From Prosthecobacter sp. (GTDB lineage: Bacteria; Verrucomicrobiota; Verrucomicrobiia; Verrucomicrobiales; Verrucomicrobiaceae): a stretch of DNA of 33,987 bases. The stretch covers positions 1-33,987 of the forward strand of contig NZ_JACSRD010000072.1 in assembly GCF_014879935.1 (NCBI RefSeq). The letters run 5' to 3'. This document shows, piece by piece, positions 3,004 to 33,559 of the stretch (the stretch's first letter is position 1; every line of letters begins with the position of its first letter). The position numbers were made by a program, and so were the translations under genes. The notes under the pieces are model-generated. The model had not been told where the DNA came from. It saw nothing but the letters and a program-made list of their open reading frames with translations, and ran no database searches.

Positions 3004-3462
3004 ATGAATCTAATTTCCAATACCGACTCACTGCCAGATGACAAGGATGTGGCTGCGGTAGCCTCCACAGTGTTTCAACCCTCGCCAGACCTGAGCCGGT
3101 TGCGTGCCCGGATGGCTGTTGCCGCGTCCATGCTCCGGCGCTTGCCTGTTACACCACATGAGCCCGCTCTGCTGTTTGCCATGGGAGAATCCGAACCATT
3201 GTATTCAGTTTCACTAGAAGAGGCGATCACTGTGGGACGTGGCGAAGATTGTCAGGTGGTCATTTCGTCGGGCAGCTCTCTGAGCCGCCGGCATTTCAGA
3301 ATCGACAAAGTGAACGATGATTTTGAGCTTACGGACTTAGGATCAACAAATGGCACGAGAGTGAACGAAGATGAATCTCTGATTGATAGCCATCTGCTTC
3401 GTGATGGTGACTTGATCCACGCTGGAGACATCACATTTCTTTTTTTCAAGGGTGGTGAGTGA
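3004..3462 (+). CDS. FHA-domain protein
   Basis: The protein has 152 residues, with an AGGA Shine-Dalgarno sequence before the ATG. Residues 1-60 are unassigned and include a short basic segment. Residues about 66-150 are a forkhead-associated domain, a phosphothreonine-peptide binding fold. Its conserved positions are present: G78-R79 in VGRGEDC, S94 and H97 in SLSRRHF, and N116-G117 in LGSTNGT, followed by L-x-D-G-D. There is no signal peptide, so it is cytoplasmic. It lies 18 bases after the ECF sigma gene and is probably co-translated. A phospho-dependent role in controlling that sigma factor is inferred from linkage alone. No Ser/Thr kinase with intact motifs is encoded in the window. 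Confidence 0.85.
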   Translation: MNLISNTDSLPDDKDVAAVASTVFQPSPDLSRLRARMAVAASMLRRLPVTPHEPALLFAMGESEPLYSVSLEEAITVGRGEDCQVVISSGSSLSRRHFRIDKVNDDFELTDLGSTNGTRVNEDESLIDSHLLRDGDLIHAGDITFLFFKGGE

Positions 3463-8565: not shown

Positions 8566-8624
8566 ACCTTTTTTGAAACTATTTTTGTCTCACAGGTCTA
8601 TATCATTGCAGAACCCACACGGCC

Positions 8625-9659
8625 ATGAACGCCAGCCTCCATCCACCCAGTCAGGGATGGAACCGCGCCGAGGAAAGCGCCCGGCACGGCTCAGGGGGAG
8701 GACGTGTCCCGCGCATCGGCTTGGTGCTTTCCAGCGGTGGCGCGCGTGGCCTGGCGCATGCCGGTGTGATTCAAGTGCTGGAGGAGGAGGGCATCCCGAT
8801 CACCGCCATCGCCGGCTGCAGCATGGGCGCCTACGTCGGCGCCTTGTGGGCCGCCGGATTGAGTGCCTCCGCTTTGGAGGAACGTGCGCGTGAGATCAAG
8901 GACCGCGCCACCTTGAAAGCGCTGCTCGACTTCAACATCCCGCCCTCCGCAGGCCTCATCCGTGGCGACAGGCTGCGCCAGCACCTCGAACGCGATGTCG
9001 GCGGCAAGACCTTTGCTGATCTCGACAAGACGCTCATCATCATCGCCACCGATCTCGATAATCTTCTGCCGCACGTCTTTGATTCCGGGCCCGTATCGCA
9101 TGCGGTGCATGCCAGCTCGGCGATTCCGGCCATCTGCGCCCCGGTTCATCTCAATGGCAGGCGCTACACCGATGGTGGTGCCTCGGAGCCGCTGCCGGTC
9201 ACGCTGCTGAAGAAGCGCCTGCATCTGGACGCCATCATCGCGGTCAATGTCATGCCGGCCTCGGAGGATTTTGAAGCCAACCACGACAGCACCTTCGACA
9301 CCGGAGACCAGGACACACGGAATGCGCTGGCACGATTGTTCCGCTCATTCTGGCGGAAAGTGAACCTCCTGGCTCGTGGCAATGTGCTGGACACCTTCCG
9401 CCGTGCCTTGATGGCCGCGCAGCTCCGCCTCATCAACAAGGAGGAAGCTGTGGCAGATGTCGTGATCCACCCGCGCTTTGCGCGCTCGACGTGGCACGAC
9501 TACGAGAATTTCGAGCAGTATCTGCAGGCGGGCCGTGATGCCGCGCGTGCGGCCCTTCCGGCCATTCGAGAACTGCTGCATCCCCAACCACCCATGAAGG
9601 AGTCAATCAGCCATGAAATTGCTCCATCCCACTCCGAACTGGAACTCCGCGCCGCATGA
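8625..9659 (+). CDS. Patatin-like phospholipase / lipid acyl hydrolase
   Basis: The protein has 344 residues. The patatin domain spans about residues 27-200. It has the oxyanion-hole glycine loop SSGGARGLAHAGV, the nucleophile S66 in GCSMGA (G-x-S-x-G) and the dyad aspartate D183 in TDGGASEPLP. There is no signal peptide, so it is probably cytoplasmic or membrane-associated like the NTE/RssA group. It would release fatty acids from phospholipids or other esters. It is the first gene of a run that continues with an acyl-CoA ligase and the beta-oxidation enzymes, so the freed fatty acids are likely activated and oxidised by its neighbours. The next gene starts inside it, overlapping by 47 bases. 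Confidence 0.88.
   Translation: MNASLHPPSQGWNRAEESARHGSGGGRVPRIGLVLSSGGARGLAHAGVIQVLEEEGIPITAIAGCSMGAYVGALWAAGLSASALEERAREIKDRATLKALLDFNIPPSAGLIRGDRLRQHLERDVGGKTFADLDKTLIIIATDLDNLLPHVFDSGPVSHAVHASSAIPAICAPVHLNGRRYTDGGASEPLPVTLLKKRLHLDAIIAVNVMPASEDFEANHDSTFDTGDQDTRNALARLFRSFWRKVNLLARGNVLDTFRRALMAAQLRLINKEEAVADVVIHPRFARSTWHDYENFEQYLQAGRDAARAALPAIRELLHPQPPMKESISHEIAPSHSELELRAA
9597..9602 (+). promoter_or_regulatory. Shine-Dalgarno sequence deciding the ligase start
   Basis: AAGGAG lies 10 bases before the ATG at 9613, inside the 3' end of the lipase gene. It supports the start that overlaps the lipase gene by 47 bases. Strong sites like this are rare elsewhere in the window. Confidence 0.6.
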
Positions 9660-11115
9660 GACCTGGCGGCGCTGGCAGGCCGCGCGCCTGCGCGACTACC
9701 TGAGTTCACGCGTGCTGCCCTTCAGCGCGCATTACCGCCGCGTGTTCGCCGAACACGACATCGAACCGGGCGACATCCGGACCCTGGATGACTGGAGCCG
9801 CGTTCCGTTCACCTCGAAAAGCGATCTCGCCGTTCCTCGTGAACAGCAGCGCGAGTTTGTGCTCATTCCCGATGAAGCGGCCCTGCGGCGTGATCCTGGA
9901 ATGATCTTCACCGCACTGCTTCACGGGCGATCTGCCGCCAAAGCGGCTGCCGAGGCGGAGTTTCGTCCCGTTCTGCTCACCAGCACCACCGGACGCAGTG
10001 CAGAGCCGGTGCCGTTCCTCTACACGAAGCATGATCTGAAGAATCTGGATCTTACCGGCGAGCGCATCATGCTTGGCGGGCGGTCGCAGCATGATTTCCG
10101 TCATGTGAACCTCTTCCCGTATGCTCCACATCTGGCCTTCTGGCAGACGCATCATGCGGGACTCGGCTTCGGCACCTTCATGGTCAGCAGCGGCGGTGGG
10201 AAGACGATGGGAACCGAGGGAAACATCAAGCTGATCGACAAGATCCAGCCCGACATCATCATCGGCATGCCCACGTTCATGTACCACCTCATGCTGGAGG
10301 CGGTGGAGCAGAAGAAATGCTGGCCGAACCTGAAACGCATCGTCATCGGTGGTGAAAAAGCCGCGGAAGGCCTGCGCGCAAGGCTGCGTGACCTTGCGGC
10401 TCAACTTGGCAGCCCTGGCGTCCATGTGATGGCCGTTTATGGCTTCACCGAAGCGAAGATGGCGTTTCCAGAATGCGTCGGTGATTCATCGGAGGCTGCG
10501 AGCACTGGTTATCACCTCAGTCCGGACCTCGGCATCGTCGAACTCATCGATCCGAAGACCGGAAAGGTGGTGCCCGATGGCGAACCGGGTGAAGTCGTCT
10601 TCACCCCACTTGATTCGCGCGGCACCGTGGTCATGCGCTATCGCACCGGCGACATCGCGGAAGGCGGACTCAGTTGGGAGAAATGCCCGAACTGCGGCCG
10701 CACATGCCAGCGTCTGCTCGGACCGATCTCACGGGTCAGTGAGGTGCGCGAGCTGTACATGGACAAGCTCAAGGGCACGCTGGTTAACTTCAATCTCCTC
10801 GAACACCTGCTGGATGACCAGAAAGGCATCGTCGCCTGGCAGATCGAGCTGCGGAAGCGCCATGACGATCCGCTGGACACGGACGAAGTGCATCTTCATC
10901 TGACCGCTGAGCCAGGCGTGCGTGAGAGCGACCTGAAACTCGCTGTCACTCGTCGCTTCCATGAAGCTACTGAGATCACGCCGAACGCGCTCCACTTCCA
11001 CCCGCTGGCCGAGATGCGTGAGCAGCTCGGCGTCGGCCTCCTGCTGAAGGAGGAAAAACTCGTCGATCATCGTCCGAAAACCGCCGCCGCATCGTCTGTG
11101 GCGCTCAGCTCCTGA
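9613..11115 (+). CDS. PaaK-like AMP-forming acyl-CoA ligase
   Basis: The protein has 500 residues, somewhat longer than the roughly 430-440 of phenylacetate-CoA ligases. The ANL-superfamily motifs are present in PaaK-like form: a phosphate loop TSTTGRSAEPV near residue 123, YGFTEAKMA near 276 and YRTGDIAE near 344. A CPNCGRTCQRL segment follows, like the CxCGRT of PaaK proteins. The enzyme would join a carboxylic acid to CoA using ATP. Its place between a lipase and beta-oxidation enzymes suggests a fatty acid, but the family also acts on aryl acids, so the substrate is open. The last 20 residues are an Ala/Ser-rich tail. Confidence 0.8.
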   Translation: MKLLHPTPNWNSAPHETWRRWQAARLRDYLSSRVLPFSAHYRRVFAEHDIEPGDIRTLDDWSRVPFTSKSDLAVPREQQREFVLIPDEAALRRDPGMIFTALLHGRSAAKAAAEAEFRPVLLTSTTGRSAEPVPFLYTKHDLKNLDLTGERIMLGGRSQHDFRHVNLFPYAPHLAFWQTHHAGLGFGTFMVSSGGGKTMGTEGNIKLIDKIQPDIIIGMPTFMYHLMLEAVEQKKCWPNLKRIVIGGEKAAEGLRARLRDLAAQLGSPGVHVMAVYGFTEAKMAFPECVGDSSEAASTGYHLSPDLGIVELIDPKTGKVVPDGEPGEVVFTPLDSRGTVVMRYRTGDIAEGGLSWEKCPNCGRTCQRLLGPISRVSEVRELYMDKLKGTLVNFNLLEHLLDDQKGIVAWQIELRKRHDDPLDTDEVHLHLTAEPGVRESDLKLAVTRRFHEATEITPNALHFHPLAEMREQLGVGLLLKEEKLVDHRPKTAAASSVALSS

Positions 11116-11121
11116 ACTGCC

Positions 11122-12393
11122 ATGAAAACGCCCTCGCTTGTCATTGTTTCCGCTGTGCGCACTCCATTTGCGCGCGCCGGCAGCGACCTCGCTCATCTCG
11201 ACGCGGTCGATCTCGGCCGCCATGCCGTGTCTTCGCTGCTCACACGCACGGGAATCGATCCCATGTTGGTGGATGAGACGATCTTTGGCTGTGTCGGCCA
11301 GCCGCCGGAGGCGATGAACATCACCCGTGTCATCGCGTTGCGTGCTGGGCTGCCGGAATCGAAACCCGCGATGACCGTTCATCGGAATTGCGCCTCCGGG
11401 CTGGAGGCGATCACGCTCGCACATGCCAAGATGTGCGCGGGGCAGGGGGAGGTATTCATCGTGGGTGGCACGGAAAGCATGAGCAACATGCCGCTCTACT
11501 TCTCCAAGCCTGCGGTGGAAAAATTCACCGCGATGAGCCGCGCACGCGACATCAAAGGCCGTGCGATGGCCGCGTTGCACTTCCGGCCGGCTGATTTCGC
11601 GCCTGTCATCGGCTTGAAGCTGGGGCTGACCGATCCGGTTTCGAGTCTGAACATGGGCCAGACGGCGGAACTGCTCGCACGCGAGTTCGGCATCAGCCGC
11701 GAGGCTCAGGACGCCTTTGCCATGCGTTCGCATCTTCGTGCCACGCAGTCGAACCACCTCCTGGGTCAGGAAATCGCGCCCGTGCTCGGGAAAAAGGTCG
11801 TTTCCAGCGACAACGGCATCCGTCCTGACTCCAGCCTGGAAAAGCTGGCGAAACTGAAGCCCATCTTCGATCCACTCACGGGCAGTGTGACAGCGGGCAA
11901 TTCCTCCCAGATCACCGATGGTGCGGTCGCGCTGCTGGTGGCGACGGAAGAGGCGGCCGCGGCGCACAACTGGAAGCCGCTCGGTCGCCTCGTCAGCTAT
12001 GCGGCCACCGGCTGTGATCCGATGCGCATGGGCCTGGGCCCGGTGCGGGCGATGGATGCAGCGTTGCATCGCGGCGGATGGAAGCTGGAAGACGCCGACG
12101 TGGTCGAGATCAACGAAGCCTTCGCCGCCCAGGTGCTCGCCGTGATGAAATGTGTCAGCGACGCGGCCTGTGCCCGCCGTTCGGGGCTGGAAGCGCCGCT
12201 GGGCGAGCTCGATCCTGCCAAAGTGAACGTTTGCGGCGGTGCCATCGCCCTGGGCCACCCGGTCGGTGCGAGTGGTGCCCGTCTCGTGCAGACCGCGCTC
12301 AACCAGCTTCACGCCACAGATGCAAGACGTGCCGTGGTCAGCCTCTGCGTCGGCGGCGGCCAGGGAATGGCCGCCTGCATCGAAGCGCTCTGA
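11122..12393 (+). CDS. Acetyl-CoA acyltransferase (thiolase, FadA-like)
   Basis: The protein has 423 residues. It has the thiolase catalytic set: acyl-accepting C90 in HRNCASGLEAI, H379 in ALGHPVGASGAR, C409 in LCVGGGQGMA, and the EINEAFAAQVLAV segment. It catalyses thiolytic cleavage of 3-ketoacyl-CoA to acetyl-CoA and a shortened acyl-CoA, the last step of beta-oxidation. A biosynthetic role cannot be excluded from sequence alone. It starts 6 bases after the ligase and 26 bases before the FadB-type gene, so it is almost certainly in the same operon and the partner of the bifunctional enzyme encoded next. Confidence 0.92.
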   Translation: MKTPSLVIVSAVRTPFARAGSDLAHLDAVDLGRHAVSSLLTRTGIDPMLVDETIFGCVGQPPEAMNITRVIALRAGLPESKPAMTVHRNCASGLEAITLAHAKMCAGQGEVFIVGGTESMSNMPLYFSKPAVEKFTAMSRARDIKGRAMAALHFRPADFAPVIGLKLGLTDPVSSLNMGQTAELLAREFGISREAQDAFAMRSHLRATQSNHLLGQEIAPVLGKKVVSSDNGIRPDSSLEKLAKLKPIFDPLTGSVTAGNSSQITDGAVALLVATEEAAAAHNWKPLGRLVSYAATGCDPMRMGLGPVRAMDAALHRGGWKLEDADVVEINEAFAAQVLAVMKCVSDAACARRSGLEAPLGELDPAKVNVCGGAIALGHPVGASGARLVQTALNQLHATDARRAVVSLCVGGGQGMAACIEAL

Positions 12394-12419
12394 TTTAGAA
12401 CCCCCAACCATCCAACGCC

Positions 12420-14462
12420 ATGAAAACGCTGCTCACCCACCGGCCCTCGGTCATCCACGACCCGCCCCACATTCTTGAATCGATTGTTCACGGCCACCCA
12501 TTGCCGGCAAAACACTTCAGGCTTGAAGTGGACCATGATGGCATCGCGTGGCTCACGTTTGATTCGCCGAAGGCCTCCGCCAACGTCTGGAACGAGGAGA
12601 CGTTGCGCGAGTTCAATCACAACCTCGAATCGCTCGAACACGACACGCGCGTGAAGGCGCTGGTGATTCGCAGTGCGAAGGATCGCATCTTTGTCGCTGG
12701 CGCCGATCTCAAAGGCATTCGCAGCATGCCGCCTGGGCGAGTGAATGATCTCATCTGGCTCGGGCAGGCAGTTTTCGATCGTTTGTCGCGGCTTCACGTC
12801 TTGAAGATCGCCGCCATTCACGGCGCTTGCATGGGTGGCGGCTTCGAGGTGGCGCTCGCTTGTGACTGGCGCATCGCCAGCGACCACGAATCGACCAAGA
12901 TCGGCCTGCCGGAGACGCAGCTCGGCATTCTGCCAGCGTGGGGCGGCTCGACACGTCTGCCGCGATTGATTGGAGTGCGAAAGGCGCTCGAACTCATCAC
13001 CAGCGGCAAGCTTTTGAATGCAATCGCGGCGAAGAAGGCGGGACTCGTTCATCACGTCGTGCCCAAGGAGCATCTCGAAACACTCGCACGTCGCCTGGCT
13101 CGCGGAAAACGGCCGAAAGCTCGTTTCATGCCCGAAAACCTGTTTGGTTTACCGTTGCTGATCGACCGCATGGCGAAACGCAAGGTTCAGGCGCGGACGC
13201 GTGGGCTTTATCCATCCATCACGAAGGCGGTGGATGTCGTCACCCATGCCGTGAGGGGTGAAATCGAGGACGGATTGCGACTTGAACGCGAAGCCGTCGC
13301 CGAACTCATCAAGGGAGCCGAGTCTCCCCGGCTCATCGATCTTTTCTTCAAGCGCGAAGAAGCCAGCAAACGCCCGGCGGCCGCGGGAACGGCCATTCCG
13401 ATCCACGATGCGGTGGTGGTCGGCGCGGGCGTGATGGGATCTGGCATCGCGCACACACTCGCTTCGCGTGGCGTCCGTGTCTTGATGACCGACGTCACCA
13501 ACGACAGCCTCGCGCGTGGACTGGAACGTGTTCATGGCCTCGTTTCAGAAGCCACGCGCCGCAGGCTGGTGTCCAGGGTGCAGGGCAGGGACACGCTGGA
13601 CCGCATCAGCACCACGCACACGCCGGTGCCACTCACCCGCCATCATCTCGTGATCGAGGCTGCCATGGAAAGCATGGATCTGAAGAAGAAGATCTTCGCG
13701 GATCTGGCCTCACGCGTGGCGGATGACACGATTCTCGCCACGAACACGAGCGCGCTTTCCGTCGCCGAACTGGCGCGGACCGTGCCGCATCCGGAGCGCG
13801 TGATCGGGCTGCACTTTTTCAATCCGGTGCATCGCATGCCGCTGGTGGAGATCATCGTGCTGCCGGAGACGGCGCCTGACGTGCTCGCCACGGCGGTGAG
13901 CTTTGTGCAGAAGATCGGGAAGACGCCGGTCGTCGTCAAAGACAGCCCTGGCTTCCTGGTGAACCGCATCCTGGTGCCGTATCTCATGGAGGCCGTGAGG
14001 CTGCATGAAAAGGGCATCCCGGTGAAGGACATCGACGAGGCGATGCTCGAGTTCGGCATGCCGATGGGACCGATGCGGCTGCTGGATGAGATCGGACTCG
14101 ATGTGGCCGTGCATGTGGCTGACACGCTCGCCACGGCCTTCCCTGATCGTTTTCCGAGGTCCAACGCGCTCGACAAACTCGTGCAGGCGGGACATCTCGG
14201 CAAAAAGACCGGCCAGGGCTTCTATCGCTACAAAGACGGCAAGGAAGTGCTGGAGGATGGCCACTTTGACCTGCCGAATCATGAGAGCATCCGCACGAAT
14301 CTGGCCCTGCTGCTGAGCCAGGAGGCGATGCGTTGCCTCAAAGAGGGCATCGTCCGCAGCGCCGACGACATCGACCTCGCGATGGTACTCGGCACCGGTT
14401 ACCCGCCTTTTCGTGGCGGCCCGGTCACTTTCGCCCGGGACACGGGCATCATTGATTACTGA
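12420..14462 (+). CDS. fadB: Bifunctional enoyl-CoA hydratase / 3-hydroxyacyl-CoA dehydrogenase (FadB type)
   Basis: The protein has 680 residues, slightly shorter than the 714-730 of FadB/FadJ. The first 28 residues are a non-conserved extension. Residues about 30-230 are the crotonase domain, with FVAGADLKG, the oxyanion GACMGGGFEVAL and the two acid-base glutamates E143 and E165 (GLPETQLG). Residues about 327-505 are the NAD-binding dehydrogenase domain, with VVVGAGVMGSGIA and catalytic H465 in HFFNPVHRMPLVE. The C-terminal part from about 510 has KDSPGFLVNRIL and, near the end, GTGYPPFRGGP. It hydrates enoyl-CoA and oxidises the product to 3-ketoacyl-CoA, which the thiolase encoded just before it would cleave. 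Confidence 0.92.
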   Translation: MKTLLTHRPSVIHDPPHILESIVHGHPLPAKHFRLEVDHDGIAWLTFDSPKASANVWNEETLREFNHNLESLEHDTRVKALVIRSAKDRIFVAGADLKGIRSMPPGRVNDLIWLGQAVFDRLSRLHVLKIAAIHGACMGGGFEVALACDWRIASDHESTKIGLPETQLGILPAWGGSTRLPRLIGVRKALELITSGKLLNAIAAKKAGLVHHVVPKEHLETLARRLARGKRPKARFMPENLFGLPLLIDRMAKRKVQARTRGLYPSITKAVDVVTHAVRGEIEDGLRLEREAVAELIKGAESPRLIDLFFKREEASKRPAAAGTAIPIHDAVVVGAGVMGSGIAHTLASRGVRVLMTDVTNDSLARGLERVHGLVSEATRRRLVSRVQGRDTLDRISTTHTPVPLTRHHLVIEAAMESMDLKKKIFADLASRVADDTILATNTSALSVAELARTVPHPERVIGLHFFNPVHRMPLVEIIVLPETAPDVLATAVSFVQKIGKTPVVVKDSPGFLVNRILVPYLMEAVRLHEKGIPVKDIDEAMLEFGMPMGPMRLLDEIGLDVAVHVADTLATAFPDRFPRSNALDKLVQAGHLGKKTGQGFYRYKDGKEVLEDGHFDLPNHESIRTNLALLLSQEAMRCLKEGIVRSADDIDLAMVLGTGYPPFRGGPVTFARDTGIIDY

Positions 14463-14486
14463 ACCATCGAATGGAGGACCCAAGCC

Positions 14487-16331
14487 ATGAACCCAACACT
14501 CGAAGAAACCAAGACACTGATCGACACGTCCCGCATGAACGCGGGGCAACGCGCCGCCCTGGAGATGGCGGAAGCCGCTCGTGATGAGCGACGCAACACG
14601 GGCCTGGCCGCAGGCATTTTTTTCGGCGAGCCGGACTTTGGCACGCTGCTGCCGTTCACCAAGCAAAGCGTCGAGGATCGGGATCAGGGAGACGCCTTTC
14701 TGCATCGTCTCGAAGACGTGCTCGACAAGCATGCCGATCCTGATGAGATCGACGCCTCAGGCGAGGTTCCGGACGTGCTGCTTGAGGAACTGGCGAAGAT
14801 CGGTGCTTTCGGCATCAAGATCCCGGTGAAGTATGGCGGACTCGGGCTGTCGCAGACGAATTACTCACGTGCGGCGATGCTGTTGGGCAGCCGCTGCGGC
14901 AATCTGGCCGCGTTGTTGTCCGCGCATCAATCCATCGGGGCTCCGCAGCCGCTGATTCTGTTCGGCACAGAGGAGCAGAAGGCGAAATACCTGCCGCGTT
15001 GCGCCAAAGGCGAGATCAGCGCCTTCGCTTTGACTGAAACCGATGTCGGTTCCGATCCGGCGCGGATGAAAACCGAAGCAAAGCTCGAAGCCGATGGCGA
15101 GCACTTCATCCTGAACGGTGATAAGCTCTGGTGCACGAACGGCACGAAGGCCGGTCTGATCGTGGTGATGGCGAAAACGCCCACGCCTGAGAAGCCGCAT
15201 GCCACGACCGCCTTCATCGTCGAAACGAACTGGCCGGGCGTCGAGATCATGCACCGCTGCCGCTTCATGGGGCTGAAGGCACTCTATAACGGCGTCATTC
15301 GTTTCGAAAATGTGCGTGTGCCGGTGGCAAACGTGATCGGCGGTGTCGGACGCGGGCTCAAAGTGGCCCTGACCACGCTCAACACCGGTCGCATCACGCT
15401 TCCAGCCGCCTGCACCGGTTTGTCGAAGCGCTGCCTCGACATCAGCACGCGCTGGGCGCGTTCACGTGAGCAATGGGGCCAGCCGATCGGCCGTCACGCG
15501 GCGGTCGCGGACAAACTGAGCCGCATGGCCGCCGACACCTTCGCGATGGAGAGCGTGGTGCGTTATGTGTCGGCGCTGGTGGACAAGGACAAGCATGCGG
15601 ATGTGCGGCTTGAAGCGGCGATCGGCAAGCTTTGGGGCAGCGAGAAGTCCTGGCGGATCATGGATGACACGATGCAGATGCGTGGAGGCCGCGGTTTTGA
15701 GACCGTGCAGTCGCTGAAAGCTCGTGGTGAGACCCCGGAGCCTGTGGAGCGTCTGTTCCGCGACTCGCGCATCAACACGATCTTCGAAGGCAGCAGCGAG
15801 ATCATGCGGCTGTTCATAGCCCGGGAGGCGCTGGAGCCGCATTTGAAGCTGGGCGCCGAGGCAGTGAACACGACGCTGTCGTGGAAGGTGCGTGCGAGGG
15901 CCGCGATGCGTTCGGCACGGTTCTACGCGCTCTGGTATCCGAAAAAGTGGCTGCCGACCGGAGCCGGTCATGCCAAGAACTCACTGCATCCCGAATTGCA
16001 GGGCGATCTGGACGCTGTGGCGCGGCTCAGCCGCAAACTGGCGCGGGATTTGTTTCTCGCGATGGCGCTGAATGGTCCGAAATTGGAGAAGCGGCAGGTG
16101 TTGCTTGGCCATTTCGTGGACGTGGGCGCGGAGCTGTTTGTGTGGAGCTGTGCCCTGGCGCACGCGCAGAGCCGGATCGCTGACTTGACGATATCTGACG
16201 CGGAAATCGCGAAGCTCGTGCGTCTGGTGCGGTTCTTCGGCAAAGTGACGCGCGAGCGTGTCGCGTCGAGCTTTGCCCGGCTGCGTGAGGGGCTGGACGT
16301 GGAGAGCTGGAAAGTGGCGCAGGAAGTTTGA
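14487..16331 (+). CDS. Acyl-CoA dehydrogenase, long-chain/VLCAD-like
   Basis: The protein has 614 residues, the length of the VLCAD/ACAD9 type rather than the roughly 380-residue short enzymes. A GGAGGA Shine-Dalgarno sequence precedes the ATG. FAD and substrate motifs are FALTETDVGSDPA and LWCTNGTKAG. The catalytic base is E434 in IFEGSSEIMRLF. A C-terminal extension of about 170 helical residues follows, as in VLCAD-type enzymes, where it aids membrane contact. It introduces the first double bond of beta-oxidation and passes electrons to electron-transfer flavoprotein, which is not encoded in the window. It is the last gene of the operon, followed by a strong hairpin. Confidence 0.92.
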   Translation: MNPTLEETKTLIDTSRMNAGQRAALEMAEAARDERRNTGLAAGIFFGEPDFGTLLPFTKQSVEDRDQGDAFLHRLEDVLDKHADPDEIDASGEVPDVLLEELAKIGAFGIKIPVKYGGLGLSQTNYSRAAMLLGSRCGNLAALLSAHQSIGAPQPLILFGTEEQKAKYLPRCAKGEISAFALTETDVGSDPARMKTEAKLEADGEHFILNGDKLWCTNGTKAGLIVVMAKTPTPEKPHATTAFIVETNWPGVEIMHRCRFMGLKALYNGVIRFENVRVPVANVIGGVGRGLKVALTTLNTGRITLPAACTGLSKRCLDISTRWARSREQWGQPIGRHAAVADKLSRMAADTFAMESVVRYVSALVDKDKHADVRLEAAIGKLWGSEKSWRIMDDTMQMRGGRGFETVQSLKARGETPEPVERLFRDSRINTIFEGSSEIMRLFIAREALEPHLKLGAEAVNTTLSWKVRARAAMRSARFYALWYPKKWLPTGAGHAKNSLHPELQGDLDAVARLSRKLARDLFLAMALNGPKLEKRQVLLGHFVDVGAELFVWSCALAHAQSRIADLTISDAEIAKLVRLVRFFGKVTRERVASSFARLREGLDVESWKVAQEV

Positions 16332-25950: not shown

Positions 25951-26562
25951 ATGCACTTCACCTACTGGCTCGGACATCGCTTCTTCCGCGAACTGGCCCG
26001 CGGATTGTTCGACTTCCAGGTCATTGGTGCTGAAAAGCTGCAATTTCCCGGCGCGGCCCTCATCGCCTGCAATCACGTCAGCTTTCTCGATCCTCCGTTC
26101 GTCGGCCAGGCGCTGGATGGGCCGATCCATTACTTCGCACGCAAGACACTGTTCGATCATCCGGTGCTCGGATGGCTGCTGCGCGAATGGCAGACCGTTC
26201 CCATCGACCGTGACAAGCCTGACGCGACCTCGCTGAAGACGACGATCCGTTTCCTGCGGCAGGGCGAGAAGGTTTTGATCTTCCCCGAGGGCACGCGCAG
26301 TCCTGATGGCAGTTTGCAGCCTGCGGAGGCCGGCGTGGGGCTCTTCATCGCGAAAACGAAGGCACCGGTGCTTCCAGTGCGCATTTTCGGCAGCTACGAG
26401 GCCTATCCACGAGGTGCCAAGACCTTGCGTCCTGCACGGATCAAGCTGGTGGTGGGGGATCTCTGGCTGCCTGACCTCGGGAGCTATCACCTGGAGGGCA
26501 AGGAGCTTTACCAGGCACTTGCGAACGATGTCATGGCCCGCATTGGCGACCTTGTGTCGTGA
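25951..26562 (+). CDS. plsC: 1-acyl-sn-glycerol-3-phosphate acyltransferase
   Basis: The protein has 203 residues. It has the acyltransferase H-x4-D motif (H42 and D47 in CNHVSFLD) and the phosphate-binding FPEGTRSPDG starting at residue 111. A hydrophobic N-terminal stretch would place it at the inner membrane. It makes phosphatidic acid from lysophosphatidic acid. It follows cmk by 27 bases and closes the tyrA-aroA-cmk-plsC run. No rpsA or other cmk-linked gene follows; the next gene is the exported beta-repeat protein. Confidence 0.92.
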   Translation: MHFTYWLGHRFFRELARGLFDFQVIGAEKLQFPGAALIACNHVSFLDPPFVGQALDGPIHYFARKTLFDHPVLGWLLREWQTVPIDRDKPDATSLKTTIRFLRQGEKVLIFPEGTRSPDGSLQPAEAGVGLFIAKTKAPVLPVRIFGSYEAYPRGAKTLRPARIKLVVGDLWLPDLGSYHLEGKELYQALANDVMARIGDLVS

Positions 26563-26661
26563 TTGTCGCCACAATGCAAAAACTGCGCTGACCTCACGAC
26601 GCAACACGGTTTCAGGTTGGCTTGTCAGAGGCGGGACGTATTTTTCACGCCCCCAAAACCC

Positions 26662-29600
26662 ATGATGCACCAACCCTTCGCGGCCAGCGCCGTGCTGCGG
26701 CGCGTTTTGTCGTCCACCCGGACCTGCCGCCGCTTTTTCTGCCTGCTTTTGCTCGTTTGCACCTTGGCGAGCTCCCTCAGTCACGCTGCGGTGCAGACCT
26801 GGCTGGACGCGAATGCCAGCAACGACTGGAGCCTCACCGCGCCGAATTGGAACGGCAACGTCCCCTGGACCGATGGCAACGATGCGGTCTTTGGCGGAAC
26901 CGGGGAAACGGTGGAGATCGCCAGCGACGTGGTGGCGATGCACCTCACCTTCAACAGCAACGGCTACATCATCGCCGATGCGAACAACGACAGCCTGTTC
27001 TCGCTCTCGACGGGCAGCATCATCACCGTGACCTCGGCGGCGCATGTCGCCACGATCAGCGAGGCCATCGCGAATGGAGACCTGGCGAAGGCTGGTGCGG
27101 GGACGTTGATCCTCTCCGGCACAAACACCTTCAATGGCAGCGTGAGTGTGACGGCAGGCACGTTGAGCCTCGCCAATGACAGCGCCCTGGGCGGAGCCTC
27201 CACGGGCACAAGCGTGACCTCCAGTGGTGTGATTGAGTTGCAAAATGGCGTCAGCATCGCTGGAGAAAGCCTGAATCTCGGGTCTGCAGGCGGCGATTTC
27301 TTCGGTGGCCTGCGAGCGGCGGCCAATGCATCCGCCACTTGGGCCGGAGCGGTCATTCTGGACTCTGGCGGGCGGGTTGGCGCCCTTTCCGGCGGTCTTC
27401 TGGAACTCAGTGGTGTCATACAGAACGGCACCACGGGCAGTCTCCTCATTTCCGCGCCCGGCAGTGGCGCGAGCCTTGGCACCGTGCGCATTTCTGGCAC
27501 CGCCAACACCTACACCGGCACGACTGGTGTGATTCGCGGCCGTTTGCAGCTTGGTGCCTCGAATGCCTTGCCCACAGGCACTGTTCTCGACCTCGACACC
27601 ACCTCCGCCAGTGAGGATTCGATCTTCGACCTCAATGGATTCAGCCAAACGCTTGGCGGCCTGCAACGCAGCGGCGGCGGCAACGGTGCCGGTGGCAGCT
27701 TCGTCACCAACAATGGTGCCACAGCCGGCACGCTCACGCTCAATCAAACCACGAGCACGACCTACAGCGGCATCATCCAGGACGGGGCCGGCGTCGTGAA
27801 CCTCGTCAAGAGCGGCACAGGCACGCTCACCCTGTCCGGAGACAACACCTACGGCGGCGCCACCTCGGTGACGGGCGGCATTCTCGTCATGAGCGGAAAC
27901 AACACGCTCAGCGGCAACATCACCGTCGGCGCGGGCCTCACCCTCACGGGAGCCAACACCCTGGCGGACACCCTTGCCTTCCAGGTGAACAGCGGCGGTT
28001 TCGTGACCGTGGGCAACGATGCAGCCGTCGGCAGCAGTGGCGGCCTGACCGTGAGTTCCGGCGGCCGGGTGGTGCTGCAAAGCGGCATCCAGGTCGCTGG
28101 CAAGACCCTCACGCTTTCCGGCACTGGTGGAAACAACAGCGGCGCTTTGCAGACCGCGTCCAGCGCCACTGCCACTTGGTCCGGAAACATCGTCACAGCC
28201 GCCGGGGACACCCGCATTGGAGGCGGTGAAGGCGGCACGCTGATCGTCAATGGCGTGATCAGCGGCACCGGCGGCATGCTCTACAGCCGCGCGAACAACG
28301 CCACCACCATCCTCAACGCCGTCAGCACCTACACGGGCGACACACAGCTCTTCGCCAACGGCGGCTCCGGCGGCAGGCTGGTCATCGGCGTGGACAACGC
28401 GCTCAGCGGCACAAGCAAGCTGTCGGTGTTCCTGGCCGTCACGGCGACCGTGGCCATCACCGTGGACCTCAACGGCCACACCAGCGCCTTCACCGGCCTC
28501 GACACCGCCAACAACCACGCCACCGGCCTGGTGCTGTCCGTGCTGAACAATGGCAGCGCGGCGTCCACTCTCACGCTCTCCGGCACCAGCCTCGGCAGCA
28601 ACGAGCTCGTTTTTAACGGCAGGTTGAACGATGGCACCAGCAGCATGGCCCTGGTGAAAAACGGCTCCTTCACCCAGACCTTCGTCGCTGCGAACGGCTA
28701 CACCGGCGACACGATTCTGAACGCCGGGACGATCCAGATCGGCAAGACTTCCGTCACCGGCTTCACGGGCTCGAATGGATCGCTCGCCAGCGGCAATCTT
28801 CTCCTGAACGGCGGCACGCTGGCGCTCGACAATCTCGGCACCGGCAACAACGGCTCCAATCGTCTCGCCGACTCGGCTTCTGTTTCCTTCCGTGGCGGCA
28901 GCATGATCTATCGCGGATCCGATCTCGCCAGTTCATCGGAGACCATCGGCTCCATCATCGCTCATTCGAAGCGTTCCACCCTCACACTGACCTATGGCGG
29001 CACAAACGCCGCCACGCTCACGGCGGGCAGCTTTTCGCGCGTCGCCAGCGGCGGCCTGCTGTTTGTGAACGGCGTGAACCTGGGCCTGGACAGCACCAGC
29101 ACGGCCAGTCTCTCGCGCCTTGTCTTCACCAGCGCACCGGACCTGGCCGGCACCACGCCTGCGGCGGCCACGGGGCTGGGAACGGTGAAGAATCTGCAAA
29201 TCGTCCCCGGCATGTATGGCGAGGCAGGAGCCAGCAGCGGCGGCGTCGGCACCGCGACCGGCACGGCGAACACTTTTCTCACCTACCATGCCGCGACCGG
29301 CCTGCGGCCGCTTAACCCGGTCGATGAATTCACGCAAAACAGCTTCGCCAGCGGCGACAACGTGCGGATCACCAGTGCCACGACGCTGTCGGCCTCCACG
29401 AGTGTCAATTCGCTCATCTTTGCCGGTGCCGGCGGCACCATCGGGTCGGGCAAGACACTGACGGTGGCCAGCGGCATGATCCTCTTCGCCTCGGGAAACA
29501 GTCTGACCTTCGGCGGCGGTGGCACGCTCGCCTTCGGCAACCGGGAGGGTGTCATCATCATCAATTCGGGTGCGAACACCACGTTCTCCTCGGTCATGAC

Positions 29601-30744
29601 CGGGACCGCCGGGGTCAGCTACTACGGCACGGGCACGATGGTGACGAACCAGCAGCACCTGTACTCAGGGCCGACCGGGTTGTTCCTCGGTTCGTCGATC
29701 GTGCAGGTGAGTTCCATTGGCACGCCGGGTGCCGTCGTCAGCGGGCCTTATGGCACCGGCACTCTGATTCTCGGCGGTGCCTCCACCCGGGCCTCCACGG
29801 CCGGTCATATCACGCTGCACAACAATGTCGAGTTTCGGGCGGACACGACCATCACCTCTGGCAGCGTGGACAAAACACTCACCTTCGCCGGAGCGGTGGA
29901 TCTCAGCAGCGGCAGCCGCACGCTGACAAACAGCTCCACGGCGAACACGTATTTCACCGGCGTGATCAGCGAGACCGCCGTCGGTTCGGGCATCACGATC
30001 GCGGGCTCAGGAGCCTCCGCCGTGGTTTTCAGCGGAAACAACACTTACACCGGTGCCACGGTGCTCAGTGGCTCCACCACGCTGCTGATCAACGGCGATC
30101 AAAGCGCCGCCACCGGTGCCGTCACCGTCAGTTCCGGCACGCTGGGCGGTACGGGCACTCTTGGCGGTGCCACCACCATTCAAACAGGCGGTACCCTCAG
30201 CCCGGGTGATCCAGCGGTCGCCGCTGGCCTCGGCACGCTCACCTTTGGCAGCGGGCTTGTGTTGAAGAGCGGCTCAGGCGCCACGCTTCAGATCACCGGG
30301 GCCACGTTCACGAGCAGCGACGGCTTTGGTGGCCAGTTTCCCGGCACGCCCGGCTACGAGGCCTACGTGATCGCCAATGGAGGCGGCTCAGGAGGCACGC
30401 TGCATGACCAGTTGAGCATCACCGGGGCCTTCACCCAGGAAACGGGGGCCAAGATTACGGTGCAGCCCGTGTCGTTCACACCTGTCGCAGGCCAGATCTT
30501 CAATCTGCTGGACTGGACGGAGGTCGTCGGCGGCACCTTCTCTTCGAATCTCGGCCCCACTTTGCGGGATGGATCGTCTGACTCCACCTTCGATCTCGAT
30601 CTGCCTGACATCCTCGCGAGCGGCTACGCCTGGGACATCAGCCTCTTTGCCAGCCATGGCATCATCGTGGTCGTTCCTGAGCCAACGAGATGCCTGCTGC
30701 TGCTGCTTGGTTTTGGCGGCCTGATTTTTCGCCGTCGCCGCTGA
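26662..30744 (+). CDS. Giant exported beta-strand-repeat protein with PEP-CTERM tail
   Basis: The protein has 1360 residues from the Met at 26662 (an adjacent Met at 26665 is equivalent). A long signal peptide with a basic N-region and CLLLLVCTLASSLSHAA precedes the mature VQTWLDANASNDWS. The body is Gly/Thr/Ser-rich and made of beta-helix-type autotransporter-associated repeats, e.g. AGAGTLILSGTNTFNGSVSV near residue 143, SGTGTLTLSGDNTYGGAT near 382 and AVVFSGNNTYTGATVLSG near 1120. The C-terminus ends VVVPEPTRCLLLLLGFGGLI followed by FRRRR, a PEP-CTERM signal (VPEP, membrane helix, Arg cluster) for exosortase processing. There is no autotransporter beta-barrel. A surface or extracellular adhesive or matrix role is likely. 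Exosortase genes are not in the window. Confidence 0.92.
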   Translation: MMHQPFAASAVLRRVLSSTRTCRRFFCLLLLVCTLASSLSHAAVQTWLDANASNDWSLTAPNWNGNVPWTDGNDAVFGGTGETVEIASDVVAMHLTFNSNGYIIADANNDSLFSLSTGSIITVTSAAHVATISEAIANGDLAKAGAGTLILSGTNTFNGSVSVTAGTLSLANDSALGGASTGTSVTSSGVIELQNGVSIAGESLNLGSAGGDFFGGLRAAANASATWAGAVILDSGGRVGALSGGLLELSGVIQNGTTGSLLISAPGSGASLGTVRISGTANTYTGTTGVIRGRLQLGASNALPTGTVLDLDTTSASEDSIFDLNGFSQTLGGLQRSGGGNGAGGSFVTNNGATAGTLTLNQTTSTTYSGIIQDGAGVVNLVKSGTGTLTLSGDNTYGGATSVTGGILVMSGNNTLSGNITVGAGLTLTGANTLADTLAFQVNSGGFVTVGNDAAVGSSGGLTVSSGGRVVLQSGIQVAGKTLTLSGTGGNNSGALQTASSATATWSGNIVTAAGDTRIGGGEGGTLIVNGVISGTGGMLYSRANNATTILNAVSTYTGDTQLFANGGSGGRLVIGVDNALSGTSKLSVFLAVTATVAITVDLNGHTSAFTGLDTANNHATGLVLSVLNNGSAASTLTLSGTSLGSNELVFNGRLNDGTSSMALVKNGSFTQTFVAANGYTGDTILNAGTIQIGKTSVTGFTGSNGSLASGNLLLNGGTLALDNLGTGNNGSNRLADSASVSFRGGSMIYRGSDLASSSETIGSIIAHSKRSTLTLTYGGTNAATLTAGSFSRVASGGLLFVNGVNLGLDSTSTASLSRLVFTSAPDLAGTTPAAATGLGTVKNLQIVPGMYGEAGASSGGVGTATGTANTFLTYHAATGLRPLNPVDEFTQNSFASGDNVRITSATTLSASTSVNSLIFAGAGGTIGSGKTLTVASGMILFASGNSLTFGGGGTLAFGNREGVIIINSGANTTFSSVMTGTAGVSYYGTGTMVTNQQHLYSGPTGLFLGSSIVQVSSIGTPGAVVSGPYGTGTLILGGASTRASTAGHITLHNNVEFRADTTITSGSVDKTLTFAGAVDLSSGSRTLTNSSTANTYFTGVISETAVGSGITIAGSGASAVVFSGNNTYTGATVLSGSTTLLINGDQSAATGAVTVSSGTLGGTGTLGGATTIQTGGTLSPGDPAVAAGLGTLTFGSGLVLKSGSGATLQITGATFTSSDGFGGQFPGTPGYEAYVIANGGGSGGTLHDQLSITGAFTQETGAKITVQPVSFTPVAGQIFNLLDWTEVVGGTFSSNLGPTLRDGSSDSTFDLDLPDILASGYAWDISLFASHGIIVVVPEPTRCLLLLLGFGGLIFRRRR
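27175..28014 (+). repeat. Super-repeat unit A in the beta-repeat gene
   Basis: About 280 residues starting NDSALGG. The landmarks, in order, are VIELQNGVSIAGESLNL, NASATWAGAVILDSGGRVG, LSGVIQNG, TYTGTT, GRLQLGASNALP, IFDLNGFSQTLGGL, GTLTLNQTTSTTYSGIIQDG and LVKSGTGTLTLSGDNTYGG. The same landmarks recur in unit B. Confidence 0.6.
28015..28840 (+). repeat. Super-repeat unit B in the beta-repeat gene
   Basis: It directly follows unit A and starts NDAAVGS. The matching landmarks are RVVLQSGIQVAGKTLTL, SATATWSGNIVTAAGDTRIG, VNGVISG, TYTGDT, GRLVIGVDNALSG, TVDLNGHTSAFTGL, STLTLSGTS with LVFNGRLNDG, and LVKNGSFTQTFVAANGYTGD. Identity is moderate and indels are present, so this is an old duplication; the 3' border is approximate. 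Confidence 0.55.
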
Positions 30745-30930: not shown

Positions 30931-33117
30931 ATGCCCGCTCAAGATGCCTTTAAACGCTCCCTGAAGACCGAAGGCCTCCCTGTCTCCAAGGGAGGCACGA
31001 ACGGGGCTGCGAGGCCGGCGGGGGACGTGCAGATGCTCTGCCAGGATGACGGCCCGTGGTTCGTGAAGCAGTCCTTCTCTCGTGCCGAGTCGCTGTGGCT
31101 GTGCCCCCTGCTGGGCACGTATTTTCCCTCGCTGCCGCGGGTGCTGGACCTCTCGAACGAAGGCACGCAGATCCATGTGATGATGGGCACCGCCCCCGGT
31201 GAGAGCGTGAAGGCCTACTGCCACCGCCTCGGAGCGCTGCCGGTGGGCATCGCCTGCGTGCTCGTCTGGCGCTTGGCGGCGGAACTGGAGGCGCTGGAGT
31301 CGTTTCTCCCGGAGGCGGCCTCGTTTGTCGATCCACTGGCCAGCCGGGTGGGGCTGTGGCAGCGGGAGTTCCTTCAACTGTTCGTGGATCGTTTTGAAAC
31401 GCGGCCGCTCCGCCGCGCAGACACGGCGGCGAACCTTCTGCGGCTCTGCCTGATGCTGATCAACGGGCATTCATCGGCCGCCATCTCTGACATCGCCGCG
31501 GCACGCATTCCATCCTCGCTCCTGGCCCACCTGCGGGAGGTCACGGAGACGGGAACCACGCGGCTGAGCGTCGTCGAAATCAAAAACGTCATGCTCATGG
31601 CCACGGCGGCGGTCACGCGCGGCCTGCGTGGCTCGAACATGATGTCCCAGCTCATGGTGAACGAGCGCTGGCACCCCGAGCTGCCGCCGCCGAAAGGGAA
31701 TGGCCGCGTGTATGGCCGTACGGAAGAAAGCCGCCTGCCAGCCACCTCCGTCCGGCTTTCACGGCTCCTCGCACACCGGAACCGCCTCACGACGATCGAG
31801 ATCACCATGCTCCAGTCCCGCCTGCGCGAGCAGGCCTCCGCCGTCCCGGTGCTGGGACTCGTGATGGACCCGGAGCGCATCCTGCTCCGCCTCCCCGGCA
31901 TTCGTGAAAACGCCACCGACACCAAGATGCTCGACATCCGACTCGACTGCATTCCGGAGTTTTCCGTGGCCCTGGAGTCTGCCAGCGGCTGTCGTGCGCT
32001 CGCCCGTTCTCCCATCGCCATCCGGGAGGCTGTGGCGCCCGGCAGGCCCTTCGCCGACCTGCGTGGTGACTTTGACGAGCAGTTCAACCGCCTCTGGCAG
32101 ACCCTGCACGACGGCACCTACAGCCTCTCCGGCTACAACATCCAGTCCTCTGACCGTCAGGATCTGCCCGGCATGTTCCATTGCTCGCTGGCCTCCCCGT
32201 TTTCAGGCTCGACGAGAACAAAATCGGAGAAGCCCCCGACTAAGGCACCTGCCCGCATGCCTCCGCCCGCCCCTGCTGCGGTCATGCCGGTCCCTGCAGC
32301 GCCGCCTGTGCCGGAGTCCGCTCCGCCTCCGGTCGAAATCGTGCCGCAATCCGGCACCGTTTTTCCTTTCAACCATCGTCTCGATGAGCTACCGCAACGT
32401 CCCATGAAAATGATCCTCATCACCGCAGGCAGCGGTGGCACCGGCAAGAGCACCATCGCACGCCTCCTGTATGAGCTGGCGGGTTTTGAATCGCGTGACG
32501 ACGTCGCCATGTTTGACTGTGATGCCCTGGGAAACCGCGACTTCCAGAAGATCGCCCCGGAAAAGATCGAATCCATGCCCATCGACAACGTGGACTCCAT
32601 GCGCCGCATGGTCGAGACCGCCATGGAGGGCAAACTAGTGCTCGCCGACTTGCCCGCAAGCTGCCAGGACATCCTCGCCCGCGACCTGAATCCAGAGATC
32701 ATCCAGAGCCTGCGTGAGGACGACGGCCTCCACTGGCTGCCCATCCATCCCGTCACCGCCAAGGCCGCCACCCTTCCCGCCATCAAACAGTGGCGCACCT
32801 CCGTTTTCGGCGACGCGCCCGCCATCATCGTCGTCAGCCTCAAGGACGGCCCCGTTCCCACCGATGTGCTCGACGAGATCGTTCGCCCTCAAGACATGGT
32901 GCTGCGCATTCCCGTCCTCGATCAGAGCCTCGCCTCCGCGCTGGACGCCTCCAACGCCACCTGGCAGGCCATCCTCGACGGCAAGGCACCCGACAGTCAC
33001 CGCATGTTCGGCAATCCGCTCGTCAAACGCCAGCTCCGCTTCAAGCGCAAGGAATGCGAGGACGCCCTCTTCCCGCTCCTCCGCCGCATCGTGAAGGACG
33101 CGGCCACCGCAGGCTGA
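30931..33117 (+). CDS. Putative pseudokinase fused to a ParA/MinD-like P-loop ATPase
   Basis: The protein has 728 residues. Residues about 30-225 resemble a protein kinase fold by eye: WFVKQS like the beta-3 lysine strand, then CPLLGTYFPSLPRVLDL, then a hinge-like IHVMMGTAPGESVKAY and a helical C-lobe. No HRD or DFG motif is present, so it would be inactive. Residues about 230-430 are unassigned. A Pro/Ala linker spans about 435-475. Residues 492-728 begin MKMILITAGSGGTGKSTIAR, a P-loop of the ParA/MinD class with K506. The signature lysine before GG (KGGxGK) is Ser here. FDCDALGN and KLVLADLPAS are the likely acidic motifs. No signal or membrane segment is seen, so it is cytoplasmic. It follows the beta-repeat gene after 186 bases. 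The role is unknown. Confidence 0.65.
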   Translation: MPAQDAFKRSLKTEGLPVSKGGTNGAARPAGDVQMLCQDDGPWFVKQSFSRAESLWLCPLLGTYFPSLPRVLDLSNEGTQIHVMMGTAPGESVKAYCHRLGALPVGIACVLVWRLAAELEALESFLPEAASFVDPLASRVGLWQREFLQLFVDRFETRPLRRADTAANLLRLCLMLINGHSSAAISDIAAARIPSSLLAHLREVTETGTTRLSVVEIKNVMLMATAAVTRGLRGSNMMSQLMVNERWHPELPPPKGNGRVYGRTEESRLPATSVRLSRLLAHRNRLTTIEITMLQSRLREQASAVPVLGLVMDPERILLRLPGIRENATDTKMLDIRLDCIPEFSVALESASGCRALARSPIAIREAVAPGRPFADLRGDFDEQFNRLWQTLHDGTYSLSGYNIQSSDRQDLPGMFHCSLASPFSGSTRTKSEKPPTKAPARMPPPAPAAVMPVPAAPPVPESAPPPVEIVPQSGTVFPFNHRLDELPQRPMKMILITAGSGGTGKSTIARLLYELAGFESRDDVAMFDCDALGNRDFQKIAPEKIESMPIDNVDSMRRMVETAMEGKLVLADLPASCQDILARDLNPEIIQSLREDDGLHWLPIHPVTAKAATLPAIKQWRTSVFGDAPAIIVVSLKDGPVPTDVLDEIVRPQDMVLRIPVLDQSLASALDASNATWQAILDGKAPDSHRMFGNPLVKRQLRFKRKECEDALFPLLRRIVKDAATAG

Positions 33118-33151: not shown

Positions 33152-33559
33152 TCATTCTTCGCGGCACTGCACATCGCGCAATTGCAGATCCAGCGCCGTC
33201 CCGGACATCTGGATCTCCACCAACGACAGCGTCAGCGAGCCCAGCATCAGGACCAGGCTCAGGCCGAACGTGATCTGGCCGCCCGTCTGGCGGTCAAAAA
33301 AGATCAGCGTCATGCTCACCACGCAAAACATCAGGCTCAGCACGCCCAGCGTCTGCATGTGCTTGATGATCTGGATGCGCTTCCGCAGGTTTTGAATCTG
33401 CTTCACAAGCATCGGCTCCTGCGAGCTCTTCCAGTTCGCATGCAGCCCCCGCACCACCGCCGCCAGCCCCAGAAACCGGTTCGTGTAGGCCAGCATCAGC
33501 AGCGAGATCGCCGGAAACAGCAGGGAAGGCGTGGAAAGCGGGAGTTCGGGCAGGAGCAT
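33152..33559 (-). CDS. DUF2721-type small membrane protein
   Basis: The protein has 135 residues with about three hydrophobic segments, near residues 10-30, 72-90 and 95-115. Between the first and second is a basic cytoplasmic stretch (QIQNLRKRIQIIKHMQTLG). The pattern SLLMLAYTNRFLGLA, LRKRI and SLTLSLVEIQMSG matches what I recall of the DUF2721 family, whose function is unknown. It is convergent with the pseudokinase-ATPase gene, whose stop is 34 bases away. The start at 33559 is the first Met of the membrane segment. Confidence 0.8.
   Translation of the reverse strand: MLLPELPLSTPSLLFPAISLLMLAYTNRFLGLAAVVRGLHANWKSSQEPMLVKQIQNLRKRIQIIKHMQTLGVLSLMFCVVSMTLIFFDRQTGGQITFGLSLVLMLGSLTLSLVEIQMSGTALDLQLRDVQCREE

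Follow-up and report, generated by a model that had tools for sequence, protein, structure and literature searches.

A conserved fusion of a tandem pseudokinase with a ParA/MinD-fold ATPase in the genus Prosthecobacter

ATPases of the ParA/MinD type, ATP-driven switches that place DNA and organelles in the cell, are recognised by a signature lysine in the motif KGGxGK[ST]. In McdA, a ParA-type ATPase that positions carboxysomes, this lysine is replaced by serine, yet the published excerpts describe high ATPase activity as well as DNA binding (PMC6328274, PMC9178275). In StbB of R388, Ser9 stands where Soj has the signature lysine, and according to an excerpt of the report it was modelled as able to replace the role of the lysine (PMC3098194). 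Bacterial Ser/Thr pseudokinases, such as MviN (Rv3910) and the families of PMC12599244, show the kinase fold with lost motifs, and in the CP1 pseudokinases, according to an excerpt of the latter review, a predicted ATPase domain (COG3899) is likewise attached. Here we analyse a gene of Prosthecobacter sp. that brings the two kinds of protein together. It lies at 30931..33117 (+) in a stretch of 33,987 nucleotides (NZ_JACSRD010000072.1, positions 1 to 33,987), which we call the window, and encodes a tandem pseudokinase followed by a Pro-rich linker and a SIMIBI ATPase of the ParA/MinD fold. ATPases of the COG3899 type are not related to this one.

The open reading frame (ORF) is a real gene with an ATG start and encodes 728 amino acids. 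Pseudokinase module 1 (residues ~40-245; 31048..31665) reaches from a beta3/alphaC remnant through the C-lobe. Module 2 (residues ~262-425; 31714..32205) extends from the hinge to the activation segment of the C-lobe, its end at residue 425 being set by eye. The linker (residues 426-490; 32206..32400) was delimited by its Pro content, low identity and fast evolution, and the ATPase domain (residues 491-728; 32401..33114) by a structure model, structural matches and TraL/StbB-like relatives; all four parts lie on the + strand. This architecture is well supported, and the function is what we infer from it. When the whole protein was searched against Pfam, NCBIfam, PHROGs, PADLOC and PDB sequences, nothing came up beyond weak P-loop or stray hits, and none of the PADLOC defence-protein models matched at E up to 0.1. 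In the open-access literature we found no description of a fusion between a pseudokinase and a ParA/MinD-type ATPase, in agreement with a first-pass annotation of the window, which knew of no protein with this architecture. The main text of the review PMC12599244 contains neither the word tandem nor any form of Verrucomicrobi-, and the excerpts on McdA mention no pseudokinase head. The protein is thus a lineage-specific, conserved one, with parts of known kinds in a combination that we did not find described in that literature.

Two degenerate kinase modules and their TPK relatives

Because direct searches with the window protein gave weak or no matches, its kinase identity was shown via a related family. 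We refer to this family as TPK, our own label for tandem pseudokinases of the Verrucomicrobiales with a likely membrane segment. One member is encoded in the same genome (L060:8613-11111; L and G numbers are our handles for loci and genomes). TPK resembles the window protein in having a pair of degenerate kinase modules, each homologous to its counterpart and arranged in the same order; it differs in that it has kept the N-lobe of kinase 2 and has the likely membrane segment where the window protein has its ATPase.

A profile of nine homologues of the window protein aligned with four TPK proteins at an hhalign probability of 98.1 over residues 47-361, covering both modules in order. The modules were then compared singly, using 14 window-type sequences (11 or 12 of them retained) and 23 TPK sequences, with 50 column shuffles for each pair. 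Module 1 matched TPK kinase 1 with a score of 76.7 and a probability of 97.1 over residues 61-244 (shuffle maximum 20.7), and module 2 matched TPK kinase 2 with 62.9 and 95.8 over residues 274-351 (shuffle maximum 22.1). The stretch of residues ~262-425, which had earlier been left as an unassigned middle, is by this alignment a second degenerate kinase module without N-lobe. A recent duplication of the two modules from each other is not shown, as the cross-pairs lie at or near their shuffle maxima, two of them over by about 1 unit or less (module 1 with TPK kinase 2, 23.4 against 23.2; TPK kinase 1 with TPK kinase 2, 22.9 against 21.7; module 2 with TPK kinase 1, 15.8 against 20.7; module 1 with module 2, 12.4 against 28.7).

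Against the Pfam Pkinase model, all four TPK proteins give E-values of 2.2e-6 to 2.3e-9, two of them above the Pfam cut-off. Kinase 1 of TPK matches PknB of S. aureus at E 1.6e-4, and kinase 2 matches ULK3 (E 0.0015) and StkP (E 0.0036). Since the modules of the window protein align with those of TPK, which in turn match Pkinase and PknB, we regard the kinase ancestry of its N-terminal half as secure at one remove, judging from sequence, and place the protein in the kinase superfamily as a pseudokinase.

The HRD aspartate, the DFG aspartate and the Gly-rich loop of active kinases are all absent. In our own reading of the TPK alignment, the HRD-Asp position of module 1 is taken by Phe132 and the DFG-Asp position by Arg154, with Asp153 adjacent, and there is no room for beta1-beta2. 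In module 2, Val311 stands at the HRD Asp position and the N-lobe of TPK kinase 2 faces an alignment gap. The kinase-like N-terminus without HRD or DFG, as first described from the sequence, is therefore borne out by homology to TPK kinase 1. TPK also looks inactive as a kinase by its motifs, which were likewise placed by us: His stands at the presumed beta3 lysine of each module in 23/23 proteins, module 1 keeps a DFG-like Asp in all 23 without keeping HRD, and module 2 has a catalytic loop of the type Asp-Leu-His-Pro-Ser-Asn in most members and no DFG. The TPK halves are complementary, each retaining the motif type that the other has lost. In both modules the window protein is more eroded than TPK.

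An ATPase domain with serine at the signature position

In the last ~237 residues the first-pass annotation had recognised a ParA/MinD-like ATPase that lacks the signature lysine, and both the motif and the fold agree with this. The AlphaFold2 model of the domain is good (predicted local distance difference test score, pLDDT, 82.4; predicted template modelling score 0.83). By VIA, its best matches are ParF (Z 14.1, root-mean-square deviation (rmsd) 3.4, 188 residues) and MipZ (Z 13.7, rmsd 3.5, 204 residues), with MinD at Z 11.4-12.5; sequence identity to these proteins is 12-17%. They have the fold in common with the window ATPase, which lacks the signature lysine. Ordered by Foldseek E-value, MipZ comes first, followed by structures of HypB and then FleN. 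McdA is not among the structural matches listed, by which a likeness to McdA is not excluded. Against PDB sequences, the profile of the domain gave ten weak rows, the best being a CheY entry at 0.0039.

The P-loop reads A-G-S-G-G-T-G-K-S-T. Its Walker A motif GSGGTGKST (32428..32454) contains Lys506 as the Walker A lysine and Ser501 in place of the signature lysine. Further downstream follow the A'/switch-type motif FDCD (32512..32523), with Asp529 and Asp531, and the Walker B/switch II-type motif DLP (32647..32655), with Asp573. All of these residues, namely Ser501, Lys506, Ser507, Asp529, Asp531 and Asp573, are invariant in 14/14 aligned homologues. McdA has SGGQGKT where the window protein has SGGTGKS, both with Ser for the signature lysine (excerpts of PMC6328274 and PMC9178275). 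By analogy, the Lys-to-Ser change is a known variant and no evidence of a dead ATPase. The earlier view that loss of the lysine would alter ATP-driven dimerisation is not implied by the change itself, because McdA and R388 StbB give precedents.

Across 384 genomes of the class, the closest sequences found for the ATPase domain belong to six stand-alone proteins, ~233-241 amino acids long (L114-L119; E 1.1e-7 to 2.8e-5). At the position of Ser501 they have Lys in five cases and Arg in L118. Their alignment (A6) scored 78.2 against the ATPase domain in hhalign, with a maximum of 20.3 in 50 shuffles; the L041 homologue was excluded from this profile comparison, its end being unrelated. Single sequences of the six reached 44.0-62.7, a range that overlaps with the 14.3-51.2 of 11 P-loop ORFs from the own genome, two of which are overlapping reads of one gene. 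One of the six, L115, matches the NCBIfam model for the conjugal transfer protein TraL (NF010461) at E 9.3e-12, below the cut-off of the model, and the window protein itself does not match NF010461 at E up to 1. The domain resembles the TraL/StbB conjugation ATPases in sequence and size, with R388 StbB also having Ser (excerpt of PMC3098194).

A C-terminal basic helix (residues 696-720; 33016..33090, +), helical in the AlphaFold2 model, is a candidate contact surface for DNA or membrane. The net charge over residues 692-722 is +4 to +7 in 13/14 homologues and is lost in L041. In this homologue (L041:1711-4062) the conserved C-terminal end is gone after about residue 689 of the window numbering, and the remainder is unrelated, as if the frame had changed.

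Distribution, selection and genomic setting

We found a full or near-full homologue in 14/48 genomes of the genus (G000, G001 with two copies, G002, G012, G017, G018, G020, G022, G029, G030, G031, G034, G236 and G435). The G020 copy is divided between two contigs, and that of G012 consists of two parts that complement each other (residues 1-71 and 69-708) and that each lie at the end of a contig, which may reflect an assembly split or an interruption. G011 and G032 contain short remnants with stop codons. A sample of 387 genomes of the phylum gave three full-length matches, all within the genus; misses are possible, as at most two candidates per genome were scored. Matches outside the genus are short P-loop ones, four of which (L048, L051, L052, L053) appear by eye to be of a double ferredoxin-MinD type with another architecture. 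In the own genome a single gene with the fusion architecture was found, the other match being the TPK gene.

In the seven closest homologues, identity is 84-89% for the ATPase domain and 61-70% for the kinase-like modules, the low value of 61% coming from a start-cut copy, and the same architecture is retained down to 37-39% identity (L031/L043). Over seven pairs, the Nei-Gojobori ratio of nonsynonymous to synonymous substitution (dN/dS) lies at 0.023-0.170 in module 1, 0.022-0.110 in module 2 and 0.015-0.091 in the ATPase, compared with 0.474-0.784 in the linker; these values are approximate, since synonymous differences are near saturation in pairs with the window. The linker has 18 Pro in its 65 residues, as the first-pass annotation had suggested in calling it Pro-rich, and is 11-39% identical to its homologues. 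These ratios indicate that purifying selection maintains both pseudokinase modules and the ATPase.

Upstream of the gene lies a plsC-type acyltransferase gene (25951..26562, +), the end of the conserved block dnaN-prephenate dehydrogenase-aroA-cmk-plsC, and a DUF2721 gene follows as a convergent neighbour (33152..33559, -). One or both of plsC and DUF2721 adjoin the gene in the window and in seven other genomes (L019, L021, L023, L025, L027/L028, L034, L036), and in most of these loci the block is seen whole or in part. In L026, L029, L030 and L063 the gene is located elsewhere in the genome, the first three having a neighbouring gene in common (an M3 peptidase in L029). Directly upstream in the window stands a giant gene (26563..30744, +; 1393 amino acids, TTG start) with PATR/autotransporter-type beta-strand repeats and a C-terminal PEP-CTERM signal. 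The exported giant neighbour described earlier thus exists, but it is local to the window genome and lies outside the finding: in 6/6 syntenic loci with a readable interval it is absent, and plsC and the gene are ~130-220 bp apart. A link to this neighbour was rejected, as was one to the FHA gene at 3004-3459, which is 27 kb away.

Ten recurrent neighbours from two lineages and settings were scanned against Pfam. They comprise an SDR/aldolase, a 3-keto-disaccharide hydrolase, a sigma-54 response regulator, an undecaprenyl-diphosphate synthase, an M3 peptidase, a ParE-like protein, a NamZ/beta-lactamase, a sulfatase, a glycine dehydrogenase and one protein without match. No FHA, secretion or PEP-CTERM family, for which a neighbourhood survey had been proposed, is among them, and none of the ten points to a partner.

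The TPK gene of the own genome stands on the same strand as, and upstream of, the bacterial tubulin genes (L060, which is G000:C272:77000-92976; TPK 8613-11111, BtubA 11399-12814, BtubB 12865-14145, and a Bklc-like TPR gene 14151-14972). Judged by coordinates, TPK precedes btubA-btubB on the same strand in 19 of the 34 btubA-bearing genomes of the genus, that of the window included. In 18 of them ~220-295 bp separate TPK from btubA, the value for G014 being taken from a fragment; in G032, whose TPK match stops short, the distance is ~820 bp. Of these intervals, those of G000 and G028 were the only ones read. The words kinase and upstream are absent from the main text of one paper on btub (PMC5372463). 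For the window gene, in turn, no association with tubulin is worth claiming, as btubA is present in 11/14 carriers and in 23/34 other genomes.

In the order, 99/288 genomes (28/50 genera) contain matches to the tandem-kinase profile at E up to 1e-10, part of them limited to kinase 1. The eight order-wide loci that were read (L140-L147) all aligned over both modules and look degenerate. Moreover, a second, longer TPK paralogue with open frames of 914-1001 amino acids occurs in 8/48 genomes (G001:C18, G002:C103, G011:C76, G020:C443, G022:C3, G027:C38, G029:C68, G030:C173); six of these eight also have the window-type gene, and a seventh (G011) has a broken piece of it.

Possible function and significance

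We propose, with a probability of roughly 0.5, that the protein is a soluble cytosolic ATP switch with the tandem-pseudokinase head as its docking module. Because the Walker A Lys/Ser and the three motif aspartates are invariant, we infer that the ATPase would bind ATP, dimerise as a nucleotide sandwich and hydrolyse ATP, with Ser501 taking the place of the signature lysine just as the serine of McdA does. The two pseudokinase modules would be non-catalytic and form a docking platform that recognises a partner, a cargo or the membrane-bound TPK. Where the docked partner is located, or what it associates with, would then depend on the ATP state, and DNA or membrane may be contacted through the basic C-terminal helix. 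In 21/23 TPKs the most hydrophobic 19-residue stretch of the protein is found past both kinases, at residues 616-707, with a mean hydropathy of 1.5-2.5. The maximum of the window protein is 1.6 and lies inside module 1. This likely membrane segment, with none comparable in the window protein, suggests, without proving it, that the latter is a soluble counterpart of the TPK family.

Several observations weigh against this proposal. The hydropathy contrast is not clean, since 3/23 TPKs peak no higher than 1.6. While the prediction by domain worked well for the ATPase, residues 1-432 were modelled poorly by AlphaFold (pLDDT 41.7). The 50 Foldseek matches listed for the N-terminal half are all protein-kinase entries, but the best reaches E 0.046 and none falls below E 0.001. 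By VIA, PknB (Z 7.4, rmsd 4.1, 119 residues) and Rv3910, the MviN pseudokinase (Z 7.1, rmsd 3.8, 122 residues), come out best, and the maximum of 7.4 is in a range that the tool calls common and that is insufficient alone. Neither the window protein alone against Pkinase nor the profile of residues 1-432 against PDB sequences gave a match at E up to 10. With 51.2, an Mrp-like protein of the own genome outscores L118 and L119 (44.0 and 50.2) in the comparison with the ATPase domain, and the relation to TraL therefore rests on the whole alignment. The locus setting varies between lineages, and no ParB-, McdB- or MinE-like partner was recognised among the neighbours scanned, where no search was aimed at McdB or carboxysome genes. 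Finally, the fusion gene is dispensable, being present in 14/48 genomes with broken pieces in two more.

The protein could alternatively be an ATP sensor for signalling, that is, a HypB- or FleN-like nucleotide-dependent switch for an enzyme or regulator on the pseudokinase head, with no spatial role. The second and third places of HypB and FleN by Foldseek E-value, the metabolic or housekeeping nature of the flanking genes and the lack of a recognised centromere- or cargo-type partner among the ten neighbours from two lineages are consistent with such a sensor. ParF and MipZ, however, are best by VIA Z, and MipZ is also first by E-value; the nearest sequence relatives found are TraL/StbB-like, and the basic C-terminal helix is conserved in 13/14 homologues. 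On balance we consider the sensor somewhat unlikely. A more far-reaching form of our own proposal, in which the protein would be a pseudokinase-steered positioning machine of the ParA type, the kinase pair reading a partner and the ATPase placing it, possibly paired with the tubulin-adjacent membrane TPK, is at present speculative and the odds are clearly against it.

It is improbable that the protein is a domesticated conjugation gene whose ATPase still serves DNA transfer or the upkeep of mobile DNA, with the head as an accessory. The nearest ATPase relatives found are TraL-like, and the locus of L117 also holds genes for a TrwC relaxase and, by a weak match, a coupling protein. These relatives, however, are stand-alone proteins, at least L117 in a conjugation locus, whereas the window gene is fused and sits in a chromosomal setting, between the housekeeping block dnaN...plsC and DUF2721, with plsC and/or DUF2721 adjoining it in seven genomes besides that of the window. 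At E 1e-3, none of the 72,556 plasmid and 50,697 phage records matched.

We think it very unlikely that the head is a cryptic enzyme, such as an AMPylase, a glutamylase or an atypical kinase, comparable to SelO, for which AMPylation is known, or SidJ. By our own placement, residue 46, the presumed beta3 position, is Lys or Arg in 11/14 homologues, and residue 53, presumably that of alphaC, is Glu in 12/14; other catalytic activities occur in some bacterial pseudokinases, as an excerpt of PMC12599244 states. Against this stand the missing Gly-rich loop, HRD and DFG, the absence of an N-lobe from module 2, and the His at the presumed beta3 lysine of both modules in all 23 TPK relatives. A decaying chance fusion without function, to which the patchy distribution, the remnants in G011 and G032, the possibly interrupted G012 copy and the lost C-terminal end of L041 might point, is already largely excluded by the dN/dS of 0.015-0.17 across the three folded modules in seven pairs, the invariant active-site residues and the architecture kept down to 37-39% identity.

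Overall, the fusion would be the first pseudokinase that is physically coupled to a ParA/MinD-type ATPase, as far as found, and a natural case of an ATPase of this class with an invariant Ser for the signature lysine, beyond McdA and StbB. Its analysis reveals tandem degenerate kinases that are widespread in the Verrucomicrobiales, one of them upstream of a bacterial tubulin operon. If the protein does act as a positioning machine, it would be a self-contained spatial organiser in the tubulin-bearing bacteria of the Prosthecobacter group.

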